Shown: positions 395 to 54,285 of the stretch, piece after piece | Numbering within the stretch: the first letter of the stretch is position 1 | How the letters are laid out: every line of letters starts with the position of its first letter | Source of the DNA: Piscirickettsiaceae bacterium | GTDB lineage: Bacteria > Pseudomonadota > Gammaproteobacteria > Nitrosococcales > Methylophagaceae | Length of the DNA: 64,000 nucleotides | Assembly (NCBI GenBank): GCA_013215805.1 | Contig: JABSQM010000014.1 | Location: forward strand, 124,001 to 188,000 | Direction of reading: 5' to 3' | The notes under the pieces: model-generated | Told to the model about the DNA's origin: nothing | The model's database searches: none | Seen by the model: only the letters and a program-made list of their open reading frames with translations | Made by a program: the position numbers and the translations under genes

Positions 395-1384
<990 letters not shown>

Positions 1385-1409: not shown

Positions 1410-2108
1410 TTGGTAAAGTATCGCAATACATTTATGTTAAAATTGTATTTTTACAACTTGGAAAATATAAATCGCCACAGTCATCTACAGTGGAAGGGAA
1501 CCATAATCAAGAATTTACAAAAAAATACAGTTAGTTTTAGTTTGCGTGAGGCCGCCATAATTTTATGTTTGGCATTGGCAGGCTATCTATTACTATCATT
1601 ATGTTCATACCAACCTATAGATCCAGGCTGGTCTACAACCGGCATGGATAATCTAATTACCAATCGTGGAGGCATCGTTGGAGCTTGGTTATCTGATATT
1701 TTATTATATGGATTTGGTTTTTCTGCTTATTTTTCTCCATTAATATTAGCTTTTGGTGGTTGGTTGCTTTTTAGTTGGGAAAGAATATCTAACATTAAGG
1801 GAAAATTATATTTTTGGATATTACAAATAATCGGTTTAGTTATAACTTTGTCCTCTCTTAGTGGGTTATCAACCTTGAATCTAAATGATGACCTATTACC
1901 ATTTGGAGCTGGTGGAGCGTTGGGCGAAGCAGTGGGACACGGCTTTGAAAGCATATTTGGTTCCGCCGGAACAACGCTATTGTTGCTAGCTGTATTGTTA
2001 ACTGGTATTACACTGCTTACCGGGATTTCATGGCTAACTATTATAGCCTATCCAAGTGGCATAGCACTAATATCAATATTTCATTTTTTTCAACTTAATA
2101 TCAGTTAA
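1410..2108 (+). CDS. ftsK: FtsK N-terminal membrane domain (gene truncated by decay)
   Basis: The open frame covers only the membrane-anchoring part of the cell-division DNA translocase FtsK. Hydrophobic segments lie near residues 48-67, 97-123, 133-153 and 188-227, matching the four-helix FtsK_4TM domain. The periplasmic stretch PIDPGWS after the first helix is typical of the family. The frame ends soon after the last helix; the linker and motor follow as a fossil to about 3480. The start is unclear: TTG at 1410 or ATG at 1434 are possible, while a good ribosome site (GGAAGGGA) precedes an ATA at 1503. In E. coli the N-terminal domain alone is the essential part, so this piece could still act in division; that is inference. 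Confidence 0.72.
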   Translation: MVKYRNTFMLKLYFYNLENINRHSHLQWKGTIIKNLQKNTVSFSLREAAIILCLALAGYLLLSLCSYQPIDPGWSTTGMDNLITNRGGIVGAWLSDILLYGFGFSAYFSPLILAFGGWLLFSWERISNIKGKLYFWILQIIGLVITLSSLSGLSTLNLNDDLLPFGAGGALGEAVGHGFESIFGSAGTTLLLLAVLLTGITLLTGISWLTIIAYPSGIALISIFHFFQLNIS

Positions 2109-3480
2109 AAGATCTGAAACTAATGCACCTTCTAGTCATCTCTATAAACTGTATAAGCAAATTCTCAATAAGCAAGAAAAATGATATTAAAAAAGACAGG
2201 AAAATAATATTTGAACCCATTCTCCAAGCATCATCTCCGAGCAAGATAAAAATAACACAGCAAATCCCCATACTCTAAACATCGGATGGCACAAATATAC
2301 CAACTTTATCCTTACTCGACATTCCAAAGGACAACATGAGTGGCTATAATAATCATTTCTTGAATGACTTATCTCGACAAATTGAGATGAAGATAAGGGA
2401 CTCCGAAGTTAAAGTACAGGTAATCAATATTCAACAAGGACCGATTAATTACAAGATTTGAGTTACAACCTGATGCGGGGGGGGTGAAAATTAGTCACAT
2501 TAGTAGCCTAGCTAAGAATCTAGCTCTATCTCTATCAGTTAGTAGTGTGCGTATTATTGAGGTTATTCCAGGAAAGCCTGTGGTGAGGCTTACAACATCT
2601 AATAAAAACCGCAAAATAGTACGCTTGCGTGAAATGTTTGGTTGCCTTGACTACAAAAAATTAGTAAACACCGTTAGTGATAGCCCTAGGAAAAAAGATT
2701 GTAGGTTGCACAGCAGTAGCAAATTTATAAAAAATACCTCATCTATTAATAGCTGATACAACTGATTAAGGTAAATCTATTGCCGTTGATGCCATAATTG
2801 TTAAGTTTACTTTATAAAGATACAACTGATGAGGCAAGCATAATCATGCTAGATCTAAAAATGTTGGAATGATCCGTATATCAAGACATCCCTCATTTAT
2901 TGACGCCCATAGTTACAGATATGAAAAGGCGGCCAATGCACTGTGCTGTGTGTGGCTGAAATGGAACGTCGTTACCTACTAATGGCATCCATAGGCATAC
3001 GTAATATTACAAGCTTTAATAAGAAAACAGGAAAGACCATAGATAAGGGCGATCCAACCATAGATATGATAAGTGATATTGTTAACGAAAAGCCAGCTAC
3101 AATTTTCAAGCCATTGCTATTCATTGTTGTAGTCGTTGACAAGCTGGCCAATATGATGATAGTCAGCAGGATGATTGAAAGTTTAATCACACAACTTGCA
3201 AAAAAAGCACTAATTTCTGGGATCAACTTAATTGTATCCACCCAGAGAACATCCGTAATGTAATAACTGGATTACTCAAAGCCAACATACCCACAAGAAT
3301 ATAATTTCAAGTATAATCACGAGTAGATTCTAGTGCAATCCTTGACCAGATAGGAGCAGAACAATTATTAGGGAAGAGGGATATGTGATATTTACCTCCT
3401 AAAACTGGTATACTAGAACAAATACATGGTGTATTTGTCAGTGACTATGAGATACAAAAAGTGGTAAATTTACGAAAACA
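2109..3480 (+). pseudogene. ftsK: FtsK linker and motor domain, decayed
   Basis: Read across frames, the DNA still spells FtsK in order: a SLLDIP segment, an RQIEMKI region, ISSLAKNLALSLSV, VIPGKPVV, RKIVRLREMFG, PHLLIADTTD, ANALCC, VAEMERRYLLMASIG, VVVVDKLANMM and DQIGAEQLLG. Stops and frameshifts interrupt it repeatedly. The Walker A motif (normally GTTGSGKS) now reads DTTD-stop-GKS, and the Walker B DELAD has become DKLAN. No ATP-driven DNA translocase can be made from this. An 8-G run at 2477-2484 lies inside the relic. Separate open pieces at 2484-2756 and 2943-3263 are fragments, not genes. Confidence 0.9.
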
Positions 3481-3768
3481 TAATAAACAAAACTATTTAT
3501 AAAAAGTAGCTCAAAATAAAAATGATTATGACGAACTTGCTATAGGGGGGGTTATAAAAAAGCAAAACCAATAATACAAGCAAGAAATACAGATTATAAC
3601 TTAGAGTCAGATAGCTCAAATTGCGAGGTATCTAAAATCAAATATAATGGCTCTGACGCATATGGTAAAATTAATGTAAAATACTAGTATTATGTATACA
3701 ATAAAAATAATTAGTTCGTTAAAAATCATAGTCAAATAACTTTTGAGTCATTATAAGTATAATGGGAT

Positions 3769-4413
3769 ATGTGGATAATAATAAGAAAAAACATCATTGG
3801 CATTGTTATCATATTAACATCATCATCTGTCCTATCGCATGCTAAAGAATCCGCTACAGACAGGCTAAATATATTTGTACAATCAATAGTAACCTTTAAA
3901 GCTGATGTCAAAAAAACTATAATTGATTTCCAAGGTCGAGTAGTCGAAGAATCTAGAGGAAAATTTTTATTTGAACGTCCAGGAAAATTTCGCTGGGATT
4001 ATTGGCATCCGTATACTCAGCAATTTATAGCAGATGGTCAGAAAGTGTGGTTTTATGATATTGACCTAGAACAAGTTACAGTTTCTCCGCAAGGTGCAAC
4101 CTCAGCCAATACACCAGCAATATTATTATCAGAAAAGACACAGCTAGATGATGGCTACATGCTTACCGATATATCCTTGGAAAATAAGCCTCTGCGCATT
4201 AAATTGGTTTCTAGGGATGCAAAGTCCATCTTTCAGATCATAATCTTAGCTTTCAATAGCAGCAGTCTGCAGCAAATGGTCATAAAGGACAAGTTTGAAC
4301 AATACACACGACTGAATTTTACCAAAGTATCGGAAAATATAGGTATAACAAACGATGCTTTTATATTTATACCCCCAGAAGGAATTGATGTAATAGGTAG
4401 CTACGGTTTGTAA
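3769..4413 (+). CDS. lolA: Outer-membrane lipoprotein carrier protein LolA
   Basis: LolA shuttles lipoproteins across the periplasm from LolCDE to the outer membrane. The 214-residue product starts with a basic N-terminus and a hydrophobic signal segment ending SVLSHA near residue 25. The family core RGKFLFERPGKFRWDY near residue 65 and the following QFIADGQKVWFYD stretch are well conserved. The ribosome site is weak, but no other in-frame ATG precedes the signal peptide. It follows ftsK as in many gammaproteobacteria; unlike its broken neighbour it has no internal stop. The rarA and serS genes usually found next are absent. Confidence 0.9.
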   Translation: MWIIIRKNIIGIVIILTSSSVLSHAKESATDRLNIFVQSIVTFKADVKKTIIDFQGRVVEESRGKFLFERPGKFRWDYWHPYTQQFIADGQKVWFYDIDLEQVTVSPQGATSANTPAILLSEKTQLDDGYMLTDISLENKPLRIKLVSRDAKSIFQIIILAFNSSSLQQMVIKDKFEQYTRLNFTKVSENIGITNDAFIFIPPEGIDVIGSYGL

Positions 4414-9839: not shown

Positions 9840-11661
9840 CAATCAATATTTTTATTATCGAAAAGAACAGCAGATTTTAGATTGCTACTAATATGGTATC
9901 AGAATATAACATTTTGCAGGTCAGATCGAAAAATTTTCAAATGTAAGTAGAGGATATTTTATATTTCATTGATGTATGTTATATTTAATGAACTCTTTCA
10001 GATAAATACGTGCCCTATTTTTATAAATATTCTGTTAAATGGAATGATAATTACCTTAGATAGAATATATAGGGGGCAATGAAAACATAATTTTTTATTT
10101 ATAAATATTTATAAATTTTAAAAGGTAATATCGAAATAATAATTCATTTTTATTAACTCGAGGAACAAGCAATAATCAATCGGTAAGACACGGAGAGACA
10201 TGATTTCATAGGTTTAGCAATTTAATTTTAGGATTCACCTATTCGTTATAACCATTCATAAAAAATTATAATTGGAATCTACTAAAGCAAATTATATAGT
10301 CGTAAGCAGATGGCAACTACAGTAGATTCGTCTATAAGTAAGTTATATAAATATTAAAAACCATATAAATATTCCTTATCAGCTGAATTATTGGGTAAAT
10401 GACCGAAATATAACAATAACATTAGCAATCAAATAAAATTTAATAGTAATTGTCGTAGCATAATATAAATATAGCAATCTAAGTATAGTATAAAAACTTA
10501 AATATAAATACAGCGGATCTAACAAAGATAGATTAAATCAAATTTTTATACCAGATTACAATCTTATTGAAGCACAGATGGTACAGACATACTACGATCT
10601 CTCATACACTTTGTACGTCTTGATATAAATGGGAGAGGAGAAGATAACGGACGAAATTTAAATATAACTTGTAATTTTCTAATTATCCATAATAATCAAG
10701 TTGCCATCTATAGGTATATAAATCACATGTATCCTACTTTTAATATTATTAATTTTTGCATGCCAAAAGAGAAAGTAAATCAGTTTACATCAGAAATATT
10801 TATCAATAAATCTCCATTATGAACAATCATGACAAAGCCTAAGTATTAGGAAATTATTTAGGTTGGCTATATAGTCCTTCGGGAGATATATTCTAGATAA
10901 ATTACATGAAAATATAGTCAGCAGATTAATTGCATTACATGGATAATTCATACTAAAACGAAGTGGTGACTATGATTAAAAGTACTGCACTACATTTAAC
11001 AAACTAACCAAAATATTGAAATACACTAGGACATTATTTCAATCAACGGGGAGAATTAAGAGTCCAACACTAATATGGAAATTCTATTAAAATTAACATA
11101 ATATATTAGAAAAATTTGATAATCTTACAAAAATTATCACTGACGAATACAGTAATAGAATATTATTATGTAGATCAAGGTTTAATGCATTAATTGATAT
11201 CTGCTATAAATGATGCTTAAACACTCAATAACGATTCATTTCATGATTTATAATGATATAGAAATCATGATAATAAAATCCGTTAATATATAATTGTTAA
11301 GTCAAATATATGGAAAAATAAAGTCAATTTAATAGTATATCAGTTATATTATAGGTGCAAGATCTTTGTATGAGACATATGTTTTATAACATCAACCAAT
11401 TGGAATGTAACTTCATTAATATTGCATCAAATCGGGCCAGACTAAGGTAGTACCATAATAACCATATGTCATAGCTAATAGAATTTTACATAGATATACT
11501 GATATGATTAAAACAATAAAACTTGTATTTATATCTTATATATCCATCACTTATGCCCACTCATAAATAAAAATTAATGTAACGTGCTCTATTAATAGCA
11601 AGCATCATCATACATAAGCACTATCTAACAGTAATGCATTCGAAGTGGCTCATAAGTAAGT
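9840..11661. other. 1.8 kb decayed spacer
   Basis: No open gene on either strand. A stretch near 10610-10800 (+ strand) reads protein-like across frames, for example an INHMYPTFNIINF segment, suggesting a fossil gene I cannot name. Near 11504 an ATG opens a short signal-peptide-like reading that stops after about 20 codons. No tRNA, terminator or repeat was recognised. Confidence 0.45.
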
Positions 11662-12318
11662 CTATACACCATATTTAGAACGATATGTTTGAACAGATAG
11701 TAAATGTTCATATAAATCAGAATTATTTTCTAGATAACCTAATAAATCATCAAGGCAAATAAGACTAAATACTGGTATTTCATGCTCATCCTCCACCTCT
11801 TGAATGGCAGAACATCTGTTCAACCCATATTCTTGTCGATCAAGTCCAATAATTACACCTACAGGGCGTGCATTCATAGACTTAATTATTTTGACAGATT
11901 CACGTATAGAGGAACCCGTGGAGATAACATCATCAATAATTAAAACCCTACCCCTCAACTTAGCCCCTATCAATAGGCCACCTTCACCATGATCTTTAAT
12001 TTCCTTTCTATTAAATGAATAAGGAACATCGCGCTGATGGTAATTTGCCAATGCAATGACTGTTGATGAGGCTAAAGGTATCCCTTTATAAGCCGCTCCA
12101 AACAAGATGTCATAGTCAATTTGATAATTATCAATTGCTTGAGCATAAAATTGACCTAGTCTCAATAGACTGGAGCCACTATCAAATAAGCCACTATTAA
12201 AAAAATAGGGACTGGTTCGACCTGATTGCAAAGTGAAGGTACCAAATAGCAAAGCGCCAACTTGTATGGCGAATTTGATAAATTTGTGTTGATCTTGTTG
12301 ATAAGTGTTCATGCTCAT
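11662..12318 (-). CDS. pyrE: Orotate phosphoribosyltransferase
   Basis: PyrE makes orotidine 5'-phosphate from orotate and PRPP in UMP synthesis. The product is 218 residues. The N-terminal GRTSPYFFNSG and the GAAYKGIPLA loop bind orotate and phosphate; the RKEIKDHGEGG flexible loop carries the catalytic Lys/His; the PRPP motif is VLIIDDVISTGSS. Its ATG overlaps the metW stop as ATGA, so it is the third gene of a coupled metX-metW-pyrE unit. Alternative start ATG at 12312 would shorten it by two residues. Confidence 0.96.
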   Translation of the reverse strand: MSMNTYQQDQHKFIKFAIQVGALLFGTFTLQSGRTSPYFFNSGLFDSGSSLLRLGQFYAQAIDNYQIDYDILFGAAYKGIPLASSTVIALANYHQRDVPYSFNRKEIKDHGEGGLLIGAKLRGRVLIIDDVISTGSSIRESVKIIKSMNARPVGVIIGLDRQEYGLNRCSAIQEVEDEHEIPVFSLICLDDLLGYLENNSDLYEHLLSVQTYRSKYGV

Positions 12319-16301: not shown

Positions 16302-17107
16302 GGTTCTGTCGCTAACTTCATCATAAACATGTAACATAGTTATCCTATACATCACATCAATACACCCATTGCTATATTAGATGGCCATTATTGTCAGATC
16401 TGAGGTTGTCTTAGACAACTATAAGTTACTACCTCGCCTATAAGCTCAGTCTCTGAGAAATAAAAAATTAAATTGGAGAGCAGCGTCAGGGTAGATCATG
16501 CAATAATTGATAATTAGGTAATTGAATTAATACCCATTGTGGAGTATAAATTAAAACTTAAGAAGAGACCAGTATCCCCTTCATAACGCATGGATGAAAC
16601 CTATATCGAAACGAAAGGTGAGTAGTTCTATTGCCATCTTACTATCTACGAATTGGGACATATCGTATGTCTACTCTCTAAACTCCAAGCATGATAAGAG
16701 AGTGGATAAATCTTTTCCTCATAAAGACATCGCTAATAATAGTTACCACATCAAATAGTCATCAATTAGAGTGGTGCAAATCATGCAGCAATCAATGCAA
16801 TAAATATACGGCCGCGGTTGTTAGGACTTTTTATGTTATCTTTAATAGGAATATTAGCCGTTACATACTGCAATAATATTGTTGAACAAAGTCACAGTTG
16901 GCTGAAACAAAATACGCGTCAAACGCTAGACTGGAAATCCATTGAGGGAGCTGCGATGATTCTCCATGGTGAAAATATCGACCATGATAAAAACAAGCAG
17001 ATAGACATTAAAGGAACAACCACCTTCAAACAATATTATCCATTCGCAGTGATAATTGTACTCATAAATCGGTATATTTACCTCATCTGTAATTGTGCCT
17101 CAGAACC
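16302..17107 (+). mobile_element. Degenerate IS6-family insertion sequence, copy A
   Basis: About 806 bp, the size of IS6/IS26-type elements. The left end GGTTCTGTCGCTAAC resembles the family's GGCACTGTTGCAAA repeat, and the right end closes with CAGAACC. Across frames the transposase reads YYLAYKLSL, KKRPVSP, RMDETYIETKGE (first catalytic Asp), GANHAAINAIN, CNNIVEQSHSWLK (catalytic Glu), LDWKSIEGAAMILHG. Stops and frameshifts make it inactive; the open frame at 16818-17114 is only the C-terminal piece. Copy B at 48098 is clearly related. Confidence 0.85.
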
Positions 17108-17528
17108 GCTCTAACCAGCATGTTAATAAATATTTTTCATAAATAGGATTGCTTGGTGAATCAATGCTTAGGCATTACTTCATAAATTTTACTTAATAGA
17201 TATCTATTCACATAAAATACTCAATTAATCAGATTATTTGAAGAGCTTATACACCTTTTTAGATAGCTGGATAGGAGTAGATATCAGGGTACAAGACTAA
17301 TAAATTTAATAATAACTGCAGCACTTCATTGAAATATAGATTACGAAAAATTCACTTTAATGATGATTATCATCTGTCAAGCTATGGCATTAAAATAAAT
17401 AATTGGCATATCCTAAATACATTCATATTAATGCCCTCCATATTCTAGCCTCAGCACTGCTGATATTTCAAATATAGCTACTTTAAAAAATATGAATACC
17501 CATGATAATTAAGGAATAATCAATGAAA
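17108..17528. other. Spacer between IS relic and tRNA
   Basis: AT-rich sequence with stops in all frames. Nothing recognisable was found. Confidence 0.4.
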
Positions 17529-42371: not shown

Positions 42372-42832
42372 TTAACGTCGAGTACGAAAAAATTGACGCA
42401 ATAGATCTTGACTTTTCTTTGCTAAAATACCGCTATTATGTAAAATATAATGATTAGATCTATAGTTATTTAAAATATCAAAGATACCACTACCTACAGA
42501 CTTAATTCTGAATTGAGCAGTGGCAAACACGACACGTTTAATCCGCGCATGAACCAAAGCGCCAGCACACATCAAGCATGGCTCCAGGGTAACATATAAA
42601 GTTGTACCTGGAAGTCTATAGTTTCCCTCTCTTACACAGGCAGCACGTAAAGCTGTTAATTCTGCATGGGCGGTAGGATCATTGCTAATAATCGGTCTAT
42701 TCCAGCCTTCTCCTAATAACTTATCAAATAAACAATCACTGCCCCCACTGGAACTTCGCCATGTAATTTAGCCCGTTTTGCTAAATCTAAAGCATGAGAC
42801 ATCCAGCGCATATCATTAATTTTAGAGGACAT
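42372..42832 (-). pseudogene. tadA: tRNA adenosine deaminase TadA with a single frameshift
   Basis: TadA converts A34 to inosine in tRNA-Arg(ACG), allowing CGU/CGC/CGA to be read. From the ATG at 42832 the frame reads RWMSHALDLAKRAKLHGE and VPVGAVIV, then stops. One base missing near 42724-42735 would restore KLLGEGWNRP, AHAEL (catalytic Glu, zinc His), GNYRLPGTTLYVTLEP and the zinc motif EPCLMC, then GALVHARI to the normal end at RTRR. The span is 461 bases, one short of a multiple of three. All catalytic residues are otherwise intact. The start overlaps waaA by 11 bases. It is either a very recent lesion, a programmed or tolerated shift, or a sequencing error. Confidence 0.88.
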
Positions 42833-47893: not shown

Positions 47894-48097
47894 TATCTAA
47901 TCATCTAAGACATCTAACTATCATCACAATCGTCTCTTAAAAGTATTATCATAATTATATTAACTGATACACAATACAGTTTAAGCCATGAATCACATCA
48001 AGTAATACATATATTTTTTATGAAAAATATTTAGTTCATGATATTCATAATTTAAATTGCAAAAGCACTTCACAAATCATTAATAAAACCTCAAGCC

Positions 48098-48907
48098 AGT
48101 TTTGTCGCAAACCTTATCGTGAACATGTAAAATCATTAACGCATACATCACATCAAGACACCGATTACCATATTTAAAGACAGTCACTTTCAATCTAAGG
48201 TTATCTTAATAACTATACCTTACTACCTTGCTTATAAGCTTAGTCTTCGACAAATAGAAAAATTAAATCGAAACGTAGTGTGAAAGTCGAGCATGCGGCA
48301 ATTAATTATTAGGCCATTAAATGTGCATCCATTCTTGAATAAAAACTCGAAACTTAGAGAGAAAACAGCACCCACTTCATGACGCATGGATGAAAAACAT
48401 ATCAAGATAGAAGGTAAGTAGTTTTATTGCTATCGTACCGTCGATGAATTCAGAAATATCATCAATTATTATCTAGGATCCAAGCATGATTAGAAAATAG
48501 CCGAAGACTTTCTTCATAAGGCAGTTGCCCAAAATCACTCACCAAATAAGATGGTCATGGATAGTAATAATACAAATTATGCAACAATCAATGCAATAAA
48601 TCTACAGTTGTGGCTATCAGAGCCTTTTATGTCATCCCTCATAGAAATATAGGCCGCCAAATATCTCAATAATATTGTTAAACGAAGTCACCGTTAGCTA
48701 AAGGAAAAAGACGATCGAGCGCAGGCTGGAAATCAATTGAAGGCGCTACAACTATCCTACATGGCAAAATAGATGTAAACTATTATTCAACGCGAACGGA
48801 TAGACATTAAAGGGGACAGCTGCATTTGAACAATTTTATGCATTTGCAGGATAATTGCGCTTCAAAATCAGTGCATTTAACTTATCTACAATTCTTGCAA
48901 CTACCTC
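48098..48907 (+). mobile_element. Degenerate IS6-family insertion sequence, copy B
   Basis: About 810 bp, same orientation as copy A and clearly related along its whole length. The left end AGTTTTGTCGCAAAC fits the family repeat better than copy A in its last bases; the right end is poorly preserved. Transposase pieces read RMDEKHIKIEGK, CYRTVDEFRNI, YLNNIVKRSHR and GWKSIEG-like. Every region has stops or shifts. Where one copy has lost a motif the other often keeps it, so together they outline the ancestral element. Confidence 0.82.
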
Positions 48908-50589
48908 ATACATGATCTTGCAATAAAACTGCAAATGTCCCTCTACGAATAATTGAAATCTACAAGAGAAAATACATTCTATTATGTAGTACAATTACAG
49001 TAATCAAATTATAAATATTACATTACGATAAAATCCAGATATTAACGATGTTAATAATAATTAATTCCTTATTCAGTCAAACTAATGAGACTATGAAAAG
49101 TTAATTTTAATATTTCAAATAATTTAATGGGAATTAGTCAAAATAATAAATTTTCAGGAAGCACATTCAAGCTATACACTCTAAATTAATCGCGATAGGT
49201 ACCGCTAAGATATGAATTTTATAATTGGGTTTAAATTGAGACGTTCGTAGCTAATAGCCATATTAAGCTATAATCATTGAGAGTAATTAAATCCCATGAT
49301 TTTGATGAATTGAATTTACTATTGATAAAATTAAGGCATTATATGAGGATTAAAGTCTGATACCAAAAGACCATGAAGATGCAATGTTATTAGCCAAATG
49401 TAGATCTATGGACTGAGGTATAATCTCGTGCACAAAAGTCAGTTCAGGTATGGCCTATGAATAGTTGCCATATACTTTACTCTCCTCACTCAGAAGATCA
49501 TCTCAAATAAATATAAATAATTGGCTATGGCGATGAAATTAGAAAGGCTGAATGCAAATCAGAGTAAATAAAACTAGAAATAATTTCACTGTCACAATTC
49601 TTAGGTTATTGGCATATAAAATTTCCAACAACAAGATAGTTGTACATAATTATTCCTTAGACTCACCTCCATAACTAGACAACATATCCAAGATTGAGAT
49701 AATTGGGCTAGTTATGCAATAATTTAATCATTGTTAATGAAAGAATAGAATTATATAATGATGTCCGCTAAAATTTTGAAGTAAATATCGTTGTTAGAGA
49801 AATCACAAAGTAGGTACGAACCATCTCGTCTTCTAGATGCTATCCATCATTATGTGCTTGTGCTTAAGGATGTGGTGGAAAGCAAATCTTTAATTTACTG
49901 AATTTTTACTTTTAGTAAATTGAGCACGATGATATTGAGGTACCCTAACTTAAAATTTTGGCGAATAAAATAAAATGCGAAAAAATGATAGATATTTTGA
50001 TGCCGGATTTTAGTTAAAAGTACAAAATTAAGACAGTATTACAATGATAATAATCGAAAAGCAAAATAAAAGGATTGGGACAAACAGTTTATAATTATAC
50101 ATCCAACCAGTATAAAATATTTTAATATCCTCAAACATAAATTTGTGATGCACAATACTATAATATATAATCTATCATTTAATTAATTAAAATTACTGCA
50201 TTTCACAATTTTTATAACAAAATTATTATTTATATATTTAACTCACAACGCCAATCTAACAGACGATATAAAAAACCAAGGACCTTAGCGTCAATAAAAC
50301 TGGCTGACAATGTCCATGGTTAAGGAATTATATCATGCAATATATCCATTATGATGGCACATGGAAGGTCGGTGTCATTTTCAATTTATACGTCTAAATT
50401 TGCAGTATGTTATCATACATTAAATTAATTATTATCTTTAATGATTAAATCTGTGAAATCAAAACCATCTATCAAAGCCATGAATAATATGACAACCATT
50501 GCACCATATTTAAAATGAAATATGGATTGCCGTTTAATTACAACGTATAATTTATTGCATATTTTAACTGGCTAGCTTAAGGCTTAAAC
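48908..50589. other. 1.7 kb decayed spacer
   Basis: No gene. Scattered protein-like readings near 49300-49750 could not be assigned. No RNA or terminator was recognised. Confidence 0.4.
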
Positions 50590-51063
50590 ATGGAAATAAG
50601 AAGTTCAAGCAAATTCTTCGCTGGTAGTATCGTTGCCTTTTTAATTATAATAATATCTGTATATGCAATTCTTTCGACCACGCAAAATTTTGGTAAAGAC
50701 ATCGCTTCACCCGAAACAATATCTAACAATGATATTGTAGAACGTATCAAGCCTGAGGCTAGAATCAATGTCAGTACAATATCAGCTCCTAAAAATCATC
50801 AGGTGGTTGAAACATCTAATGTTGGCGGAGGAAAGAAGATAGTCACTCAAATTTGCGCTATGTGTCACGATCAAGGAGTGATGAATGCACCCAAACTAGG
50901 TAATAATAAAGATTGGGCCCCACGTATCAGAAAGGGCATTGATGTACTATATGAAAACGCACTTAACGGTTTTAATATGATGCCAGCACGTGGCGGCGAC
51001 TCCAGTTTAACTGACAATAATGTCAAATCTGCTGTAAACTATATGATTTACATTGCTAAATAG
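50590..51063 (+). CDS. Membrane-anchored cytochrome c5
   Basis: A monoheme c-type cytochrome of 157 residues. An uncleaved N-terminal helix (about 11-28) anchors it in the inner membrane. The heme site CAMCH lies near residue 98, and the methionine ligand is in NMMPARGG near 135, followed by LTDNNVKSAVNYM, the pattern of cytochrome c5. It would carry electrons toward a terminal oxidase, alongside cytochrome c4, and be matured by ResB/CcsA. Confidence 0.9.
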   Translation: MEIRSSSKFFAGSIVAFLIIIISVYAILSTTQNFGKDIASPETISNNDIVERIKPEARINVSTISAPKNHQVVETSNVGGGKKIVTQICAMCHDQGVMNAPKLGNNKDWAPRIRKGIDVLYENALNGFNMMPARGGDSSLTDNNVKSAVNYMIYIAK

Positions 51064-51159
51064 CCTTAGAATAAGTATCCCTATACCTACATTCATTCAA
51101 TAACTAATACTTATGATATTTATCGATTAGTATCTACTTAGTAAACTTTAGACTTAATA

Positions 51160-51627
51160 ATGACTAATAACGATATTATTCGCCGACTTAGGTATAGTCT
51201 CAATATTAGCGACTCAAAAATGATCGCGCTATTTGCATTGGCGAAAGTAAATGTGACCAAAGGACAGATTATTGACTGGCTAGAAAAAGAAGGAAATTCT
51301 AATTATACCAGCTGCAGAGATGTGCGATTGGCCTCATTTTTAAATGGATTAATTGCTGATAGGAGGGGGAAAAGTAAAATCTGCAAATTTATACCTGAAA
51401 AAAACTTAAATAATAACATAATTTTTAGAAAAATCGTAATTGCATTGAATTTTCAATCTAAAGATATATTAAACATTATATCCTTAGCTAATTTTAAAAT
51501 CAGTAAAAATGAACTAAGCGCCTTCTTCCGCAAGCCAGAACATAAACACTTTCGTAATTGTAAAGATCAAGTTCTTCGCAAATTTTTGAAAGGATTACAA
51601 ATTAAACTTCGTAGCTCCAAAAAATAA
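51160..51627 (+). CDS. DUF1456 protein (YehS family)
   Basis: A 155-residue protein made of two copies of the same roughly 70-residue helical unit: NNDIIRRLRYSLNISDSKM with a CRDVRLASFLNGLI end, and NIIFRKIVIALNFQSKDIL with a KDQVLRKFLKGLQ end. This is the YehS/DUF1456 pattern. Its function is not established. The centre is basic and short of the usual spacing. No partner gene is adjacent, but the frame is intact between two decayed stretches, suggesting selection. Confidence 0.85.
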   Translation: MTNNDIIRRLRYSLNISDSKMIALFALAKVNVTKGQIIDWLEKEGNSNYTSCRDVRLASFLNGLIADRRGKSKICKFIPEKNLNNNIIFRKIVIALNFQSKDILNIISLANFKISKNELSAFFRKPEHKHFRNCKDQVLRKFLKGLQIKLRSSKK

Positions 51628-51936
51628 ACCAACGGCTTTCTAATGGTGAGATAGCTAGTGATTTTAAGACCTAAATAAAATAATACAATCTATTTTTGAG
51701 ATTATAGTTAAAGATATTCTTATAACTATACTAATAATGAAGAATTACTATTATGAATAAACATGCCAGTGAATCAATACTAGGCGAATTATGGAAAGCA
51801 ATTTTATGTTATAAAGCTCAAGCTAACATATACATGCTAGAGATTAAAGATAAAAGTTAATTAAAGTGATTTTTTAGTATGCTAAATTCAATAAATAATA
51901 GATTGAGCCAATTTATAAAGTAAAGAAATATATCTC

Positions 51937-52476
51937 ATGAATAGAGCTGCACTACTTAAATCTCTTGCAAACTTCAAACCCAATAATCAAGAGAAGAAAG
52001 AAATAATAAATCATTTAATTCTATTTATTGAATTAGATAATAATTGTTTTAGCCGTAATAATATTAAGGGTCATGTGACAGGCTCGGCATGGCTTACCAA
52101 TGATAAAGATCAAGTGTTACTAACACATCATAAGATACTAAATAAATGGTTGCAACTAGGTGGTCATTGCGACGGCCAGTCTGATGTGCTGGAAGTTGCA
52201 AAGAAGGAGGCTTTTGAAGAATCAGGTATACAAAATATACAAGCTAAAAATAATGAAATTTTTGATATCGATATTCATTTCATACCCGCAAACAAGATGG
52301 AGGATTCGCATTTTCATTACGATATTAGATACCATCTTGAAACCAAGGCTAGCAATATCACAATTAGCAATGAATCTAACGATCTAAAATGGTTCAAAAA
52401 GAAGGAATTAATCTCAGGTTTAATAAAAATTGACCAATCTATGAAAAATATGGTAAATATATGGGTGCTCCAATGA
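51937..52476 (+). CDS. NUDIX hydrolase
   Basis: A 179-residue NUDIX-fold protein. The box is GGHCDGQSDVLEVAKKEA followed by FEESGI; the Glu-Glu pair needed for metal binding is present, while the usual Arg before Glu is Lys. The HCDG...LEVA form matches a bacterial group of NUDIX proteins of unknown substrate. An N-terminal helical extension (about 1-45) is also typical of that group. It is not linked to any pathway gene here. Confidence 0.85.
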   Translation: MNRAALLKSLANFKPNNQEKKEIINHLILFIELDNNCFSRNNIKGHVTGSAWLTNDKDQVLLTHHKILNKWLQLGGHCDGQSDVLEVAKKEAFEESGIQNIQAKNNEIFDIDIHFIPANKMEDSHFHYDIRYHLETKASNITISNESNDLKWFKKKELISGLIKIDQSMKNMVNIWVLQ

Positions 52477-54285
52477 ATATTAAATACCTCACTCAACTGC
52501 CAGTTATTAGAAATTTTTAATATCCATAAAAATTAATAACAATAAAATATATTCGCAATTAAAGATGATATGGTAATTAATAACTCTTATACCTCAAAGT
52601 TGTAGTGCCAATGAAATTAACCTTATTGCTTAACTGTAAGGATGATAGATAAATTTCTATATTAGAATTAACAAATTAAAATCATAAATGTCCCGCATAC
52701 TAAAATTTACTCCGCTTAAATTAATAACAATCATAATTCACGTATCTTCACAGACTTAGCAAAGACATTGATGATCAACTAAAAATATATCTTAATACTT
52801 ATAGTTGTAGTATGCATGATTAATTATAAATTCACTGAAGGCTCAACAATTTAATTTTTGATCATCATATTGATGAATAAATTGTAAATCATTAATCATA
52901 ATTGCTTCATCAGACCACTTTCTGATACTAATAACAAAAATTATATTTATAAATATCAGAAAATAAGAATGAGTAATGTAGCTTATATGGTCCCAACTTC
53001 ATGAACATGAACAACATCCAGAGTCCATAATAGGTCTTCTATCCACATTTATATTTTAGAATTTTTAAAGCACTCAATGTGAAGTTATGATGCATCATAT
53101 AAACATAGAAGTACATTATTTCATGACTGTTTCTCATCTGCCAGATAAATTAAATACTAACCTAAATAAACATTGAGTTACCAATAAAGTGCTATATCGA
53201 AAAATTGTTAATTTATTTCACGGTCACTAATGATAATGAATTCAGATAAATATTCCATGCATCATACAGTCATATGTTAAATAGAACTTAATCTCAGATT
53301 CAATGATAGCTAGTCAACATGCGTTAAAATATTTCTAGGATGTGGAGATAATAGATCTTATGAACAATGGAGCGAAAGACGACAGAAATTTATTAGTATG
53401 GATATTATGGATATATTCGATATATACAATTAATAATTGAATTGAAAGTATATCACTATATTACTGGAATGTAATAACAGGGGATAAATAAGAGGCTTGT
53501 AACACAGTTGCAGATAACCCATATCAAAATACATGTCAAGTAATAGACTGATTTTCAGACCTGATATTATCAAATTGATGATGAAATCATATAATTTAAT
53601 TAGTATGAGAACTGATAATTATCTTATACATATGTATTAATTCAGATAATATTATTAATATATCGACTGGTGAGTATGATAAATTATAAAAATAGTATAG
53701 TACTGAAGAATTGCTGCGGATCAATGCTTACAATTGATAATCTCGATCCTAATGAATAACAGAAAATCATGATAATTAATATTTTTAATATGGTGATGCC
53801 CTACACATTATCGAGAAACAATTGAAGGATATTAGATGTATCTATAATCATCCGATAGTGTATGCAATCACAAAATAAAGTAGAATGAATTAGTACCCAT
53901 AATAATCTAAGTATCATATTATCAGCCATAAAATGACTATTGATCATACGTATCAACTAAATTATATTGGCAGAACCACTTATAGTATTAAATTACAGTC
54001 ATAATACAATGGAAATAAGCATACACCAAGACCACAAGCAAATTTTTGATCAATGTATTAAAAATCACTACATCCTATTTTATTATTGAAGAGAAAGAAT
54101 TAGGTGATCTCCCAACAACTATAACTAATGAAGTTAGGTTGCAGATCATTGATTCAGGATAAACTTGAAATGTAATAATAAAATCAGTATTCAAAGGATC
54201 CCAGATAAAGAATGGAAATATCGAGTATAAGCAATGGCTAATCCGGTAAAATTTATTAACGATAATTTATTAAAGGGACTGTGGC
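52477..54285. other. 1.8 kb decayed spacer
   Basis: No open gene on either strand. A readable plus-strand stretch near 54040-54200 (for example ELGDLPTTITNEVRL) is protein-like but unassigned. Confidence 0.4.

Follow-up and report, generated by a model that had tools for sequence, protein, structure and literature searches.

A precedent for an FtsK reduced to its N-terminal part comes from Serratia symbiotica SCc and STs. There, the protein is cut to a very small portion, which Manzano-Marin and Latorre (2016, PMC5013485) call 'gene diminution'. According to these authors, it is explained by the fact that E. coli division needs only FtsK residues 1-200 (PMC5013485). Truncations of E. coli FtsK to its N terminus (Draper et al. 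1998, referred to in both PMC5013485 and PMC12283558) likewise comprise the four helices without the linker and the motor, although they were laboratory constructs with a functional start, whereas the case reported here is natural and known from sequence. The linker of FtsK has also been given a division role in E. coli work cited in PMC12283558. Chromosome dimers come from homologous recombination (PMC10591338), and losses related to their resolution have been reported from other reduced genomes. The weevil symbiont SOPE has lost its dif region (PMC3914690), and Buchnera divides with FtsZ/FtsA and without an FtsK motor, having no ftsK at all (PMC10591338).

The ftsK locus considered here lies in a 64,000-nucleotide stretch of DNA, which was analysed as a whole and is referred to as the window; all coordinates are window positions. 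As in membrane-only FtsK of the Serratia symbiotica type, the rest of the gene is lost beside an open reading frame (ORF) for the four-helix domain, and the kept part is the better conserved. Since FtsK trimming is known from Serratia symbiotica, the source genome represents an independent case of a known kind, and it is unusual in that the sequence of the dead motor can still be read next to the retained domain. It further differs from Serratia symbiotica in its Methylophagaceae-related lineage, in the loss of the ancestral start, which makes translation uncertain, and in the availability of a rate test, none being given in the passages of PMC5013485 on this gene. The source genome resembles SOPE in the loss of dif, although the list of what is lost or not found is longer here (xerC, xerD, dif, recA, and the FtsK motor), and it resembles Buchnera in its reduced size and in the lack of a working motor, but not in the absence of the whole gene. 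We consider it likely that this ftsK is in the course of trimming, with a dead motor and a membrane domain that was held longer by selection.

State of the ftsK gene

The source genome is a 1.15-Mb draft in 27 contigs, listed as 100% complete, with a G+C content of 35%, whereas same-genus relatives have genomes of 2.1-2.4 Mb. The FtsK of the nearest relative has its best named match, at 85%, in a Piscirickettsiaceae MAG; we accordingly place the organism, with its reduced genome, in the gammaproteobacterial Methylophagaceae group, the named matches having ruled against a Nitrosomonadaceae ammonia oxidiser, and we infer a symbiotic lifestyle from genome size, low G+C content, and gene decay. 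Deep-sea mussels host known Methylophagaceae symbionts (PMC10199937). Elsewhere in the window, positions 10001-12000 and 48000-54000 are low in G+C (0.28-0.31), contain few long ORFs, and likely hold more decayed genes. A TadA-like deaminase frame at 42375-42767 on the reverse strand (PF00383, 74 bits) matches only from profile position 36 on, its 5′ part being missing or shifted, and a very weak, below cut-off match to an IS240-type transposase domain (PF13610) lies in a gene-poor part at 16770-17111 on the forward strand. The gene order trxB-ftsK-lolA is common to the source genome and its relatives. The divergent neighbour trxB (395-1354, reverse strand) is an intact ORF with approximately 79% identity to relatives and serves as a yardstick for a kept gene, and lolA (3769-4413, forward strand), also intact, is the next gene downstream of ftsK, as in relatives.

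The window was aligned with full-length FtsK of four relatives by a frameshift-aware method. The ORF at 1410-2108 matches the Pfam family FtsK_4TM (PF13491; 139.6 bits, E 1e-40), and the four-helix N-terminal membrane domain itself, at 1530-2075 on the forward strand, contains no stop and no frameshift, its sole indel being a 6-nt in-frame deletion. The ORF terminates at TAA 2106-2108, inside a decayed linker (2076-2289, forward strand) with approximately 21% identity to relatives. The following region (2290-3628, forward strand), which corresponds to the alpha/beta motor and the start of the gamma region (fragments of PF17854 and PF01580), carries nine in-frame stops and approximately six frameshifts and remains readable at approximately 57% identity, where relatives share 87%. 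A TAA stop lies inside the Walker A motif (2767-2769, forward strand), and the Walker B motif DELAD is changed to DKLAN (3138-3152, forward strand). Thus, the destruction of linker and ATPase noticed in the earlier note is confirmed, with approximately 10 in-frame stops and 8-9 frameshifts over 2076-3610. A G8 run (2477-2484) and a G7 run (3545-3551), unusual at 35% G+C, are present inside the decayed motor. Compared with a complete working FtsK/SpoIIIE translocase, the locus retains FtsK_4TM and lacks both an intact Walker A/B motor and the XerCD/dif partners.

The 5′ end of the gene is not intact. Alignment with seven relatives revealed blocks conserved upstream of ftsK at 1409-1443 on the forward strand, comprising a TTTGGTAAAG block at 1409-1418 and an extended -10-like TGTTAAAAT at 1435-1443, for which a promoter-like function is proposed. 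Scanning with a promoter consensus did not perform better here than on shuffles, so that the promoter-like call uses cross-species conservation only. Because the conserved blocks cover position 1410, a start there is not coding; TTG1410 and ATG1434 sit within or upstream of the promoter-like element, and the stretch 1410-1471, which had first been read as coding, is on this alignment non-coding for ftsK. The element may also serve trxB or lolA, or partly belong to trxB, and its conservation is thus no evidence for the membrane domain alone. The ftsK start codon of all 14 relatives is a TTG or GTG, located a few codons after a stop that precedes the gene. At the corresponding ancestral start position (1472-1474, forward strand), TCG is found here, and the frame of the ancestral start diverges from that of the membrane domain through a 1-nt break at an A7 run (1519-1525, forward strand), a shift at approximately 1514-1525 being needed to join them in the frameshift-aware alignment. 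The membrane-frame starts downstream of the promoter-like element are all weak, namely TTG1458, TTG1542, and a non-standard ATA1503 behind AAGGGA, and no clear ATG, GTG, or TTG with a ribosome-binding site was found in this frame downstream of the element. The N-terminal frame, described as uninterrupted in the earlier note, is therefore open only from a point shortly upstream of helix 1, free of lesions over 1530-2075 and interrupted at its 5′ end.

Recombination and division genes elsewhere in the genome

No second ftsK is present in the source genome, whose sole copy is in pieces. In a family search of 57 genomes, it was the only one with the motor frame broken within a contig, and the motor frame was unbroken in 52 of the 56 others. 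The remaining four are partial drafts (69-86% complete), two of which (G039 and G040) have no FtsK-level match, whereas a contig end truncates the gene in G038, and G052 has a partial one.

No XerC/XerD-family tyrosine recombinase was found in the source genome, whereas XerD is present in all 11 relatives searched, and two same-genus genomes have a second Xer-type match. Likewise, no dif-like site was found in it, whereas 8 of 9 other genomes have exactly one and a reversed-pattern control gave zero. The draft yielded no recA match, and recA was found in 9 of 11 relatives. Nor is there a strong match in the other two, G002 and G005 (94% and 99% complete), probably owing to assembly gaps; as these are drafts, XerCD can be called absent with more confidence than recA. 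Searching for RuvB yielded a match of no more than 28 bits and no convincing ruvB, which, together with the missing recA match, suggests that homologous recombination as a whole was lost. Dimer resolution by FtsK/XerCD, which had been supposed abandoned from the ftsK sequence, thus finds no gene or site to sustain it in the draft, and chromosome-dimer resolution has, on these gene searches, evidently been given up. The dcw cluster is intact, with ftsW-ftsQ-ftsA-ftsZ and Mur genes, and a membrane domain acting in division would still find FtsZ, FtsA, FtsQ, and FtsW to work with.

Evolutionary rates of the membrane domain and the motor

Protein rates were compared as the ratio of the source genome's own branch to the other branches, against 14 relatives and with bootstrap ranges, no sister strain of the source organism having been found. 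The ratio is 0.33 (bootstrap 0.24-0.47) for the membrane domain and 0.91 (0.74-1.45) for the motor, which has evolved at approximately three times the pace of the former. The intact neighbour trxB has 0.31, approximately the same as the membrane domain, and the intact ftsW, ftsQ, and ftsA are slower (0.09-0.16). Since the membrane domain kept the pace of trxB while the motor was threefold faster, the membrane domain is considered to have outlived the motor under purifying selection, as is supported statistically. The columns invariant in relatives point in the same direction, 16 of 98 being changed in the membrane domain versus 95 of 289 in the motor (Fisher p 0.0018), as do columns 90% conserved in 96 FtsKs (1 of 19 versus 62 of 212; p 0.029), although the contrast is no longer significant at columns conserved at 95-100% in these 96 proteins (p 0.07-0.11). 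These column measures and the protein rates share overlapping data and are not mutually independent. When neutral mutations were added to intact genes, the state of the motor was matched at approximately 0.15 substitutions per site and that of the membrane domain at 0-0.05, which indicates that any release of the membrane domain came long after that of the motor. The data thus allow either continued weak selection on the membrane domain or a release later than that of the motor, with neutral evolution for at most about one third as long as in the motor.

The earlier note had proposed that selection may hold the membrane part alone; selection stronger than on the motor is borne out by rates, invariant columns, and simulation, whereas its persistence today is called into question by the lost start, the broken 5′ frame, and a rate above that of ftsW, ftsQ, and ftsA. 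The main rival to present translation of the membrane piece is accordingly that the whole gene is dead, the membrane domain having outlived the motor and then been released when the start and the 5′ frame were lost, with no stop acquired yet. This recent death, to which we give somewhat less than an even chance, accounts for the TCG at the start and the break at the A7 run; the divergence of the membrane domain equals that of an intact gene plus up to approximately 0.05 neutral substitutions per site, a level at which the simulated chance of no stop is approximately 0.26-0.28, and Buchnera, without FtsK altogether, indicates that some lineages can do without the entire gene (PMC10591338). Against it stand 546 bp without a stop or frameshift, an only indel that is a multiple of three, the change of a single one of the 19 broadly conserved positions, and the full divisome context that is kept.

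Uniform neutral decay of the entire ftsK, with a membrane part left clean by luck, is improbable. The damaged 5′ end would fit it, and a branch-omega model gives no separation of the two parts, both showing the same approximately threefold rise. Synonymous change on the reduced-genome branch is, however, saturated, which renders this model uninformative, and protein ratios, invariant-column counts, and the neutral simulation were used instead. Lesions are unevenly spread, with none in the 546-bp membrane part versus 15 in 1,320 bp of the motor (P of an even spread approximately 0.006), or none of 18 when the linker is included (P approximately 0.004). Moreover, the invariant-column changes differ as given above, the bootstrap ranges of the two rate ratios do not overlap, and simulation at the motor's level predicts an invariant-column change of approximately 0.32 in the membrane domain versus 0.16 observed. 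Finally, a sequencing or assembly error that makes an intact ftsK look broken, as the frame break at the A7 run and the G7-G8 runs in the motor might suggest, is very improbable in view of the nine nonsense codons, the lost catalytic motifs, the drop in identity from 87% among relatives to approximately 57%, the 19 A/T runs of at least 7 in intact ORFs of the window, all without a frame break, and the simultaneous lack of XerC, XerD, and dif.

Proposed course of trimming

In the trimming model that we favour, the loss of xerC, xerD, and dif in this lineage, and of recA insofar as a draft can tell, comes first. Without homologous recombination there would be little need of FtsK-XerCD, dimers being rare and the motor and the XerCD-activating end of FtsK useless; this is the simplest cause of motor loss, the order of the losses being inferred. 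The linker and the motor have decayed neutrally, while on the statistical evidence purifying selection continued to act on the four-helix domain, which suffices for divisome assembly in E. coli, long after the release of the motor; the domain presumably went on linking FtsZ/FtsA to FtsQ-FtsW. Several points tell against the model: the ancestral start is gone and the 5′ frame broken, with only weak alternative starts left; the membrane domain changes faster than ftsW, ftsQ, and ftsA; neither the branch-omega models nor the most strictly conserved columns separate the two parts significantly; the absence of recA is read from a draft; and the linker, given a division role in E. coli, has decayed. 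Present-day translation of the membrane domain, which would have to be from a non-ancestral start, is judged from the sequence at about even, and otherwise the domain would have been recently released too. A working four-helix-only FtsK, made from a new start in a cell without RecA, XerCD, and dif, falls just short of an even chance.

If a membrane-only FtsK does work here, it would be a second origin of such an FtsK, caught during decay of the motor. The locus is a natural test of the E. coli-derived claim that division requires no part of FtsK beyond its membrane domain. With the loss of dimer resolution, two halves of one gene are released at different times, and the still readable motor lets the order of loss be measured, as fully trimmed endosymbiont genes do not.
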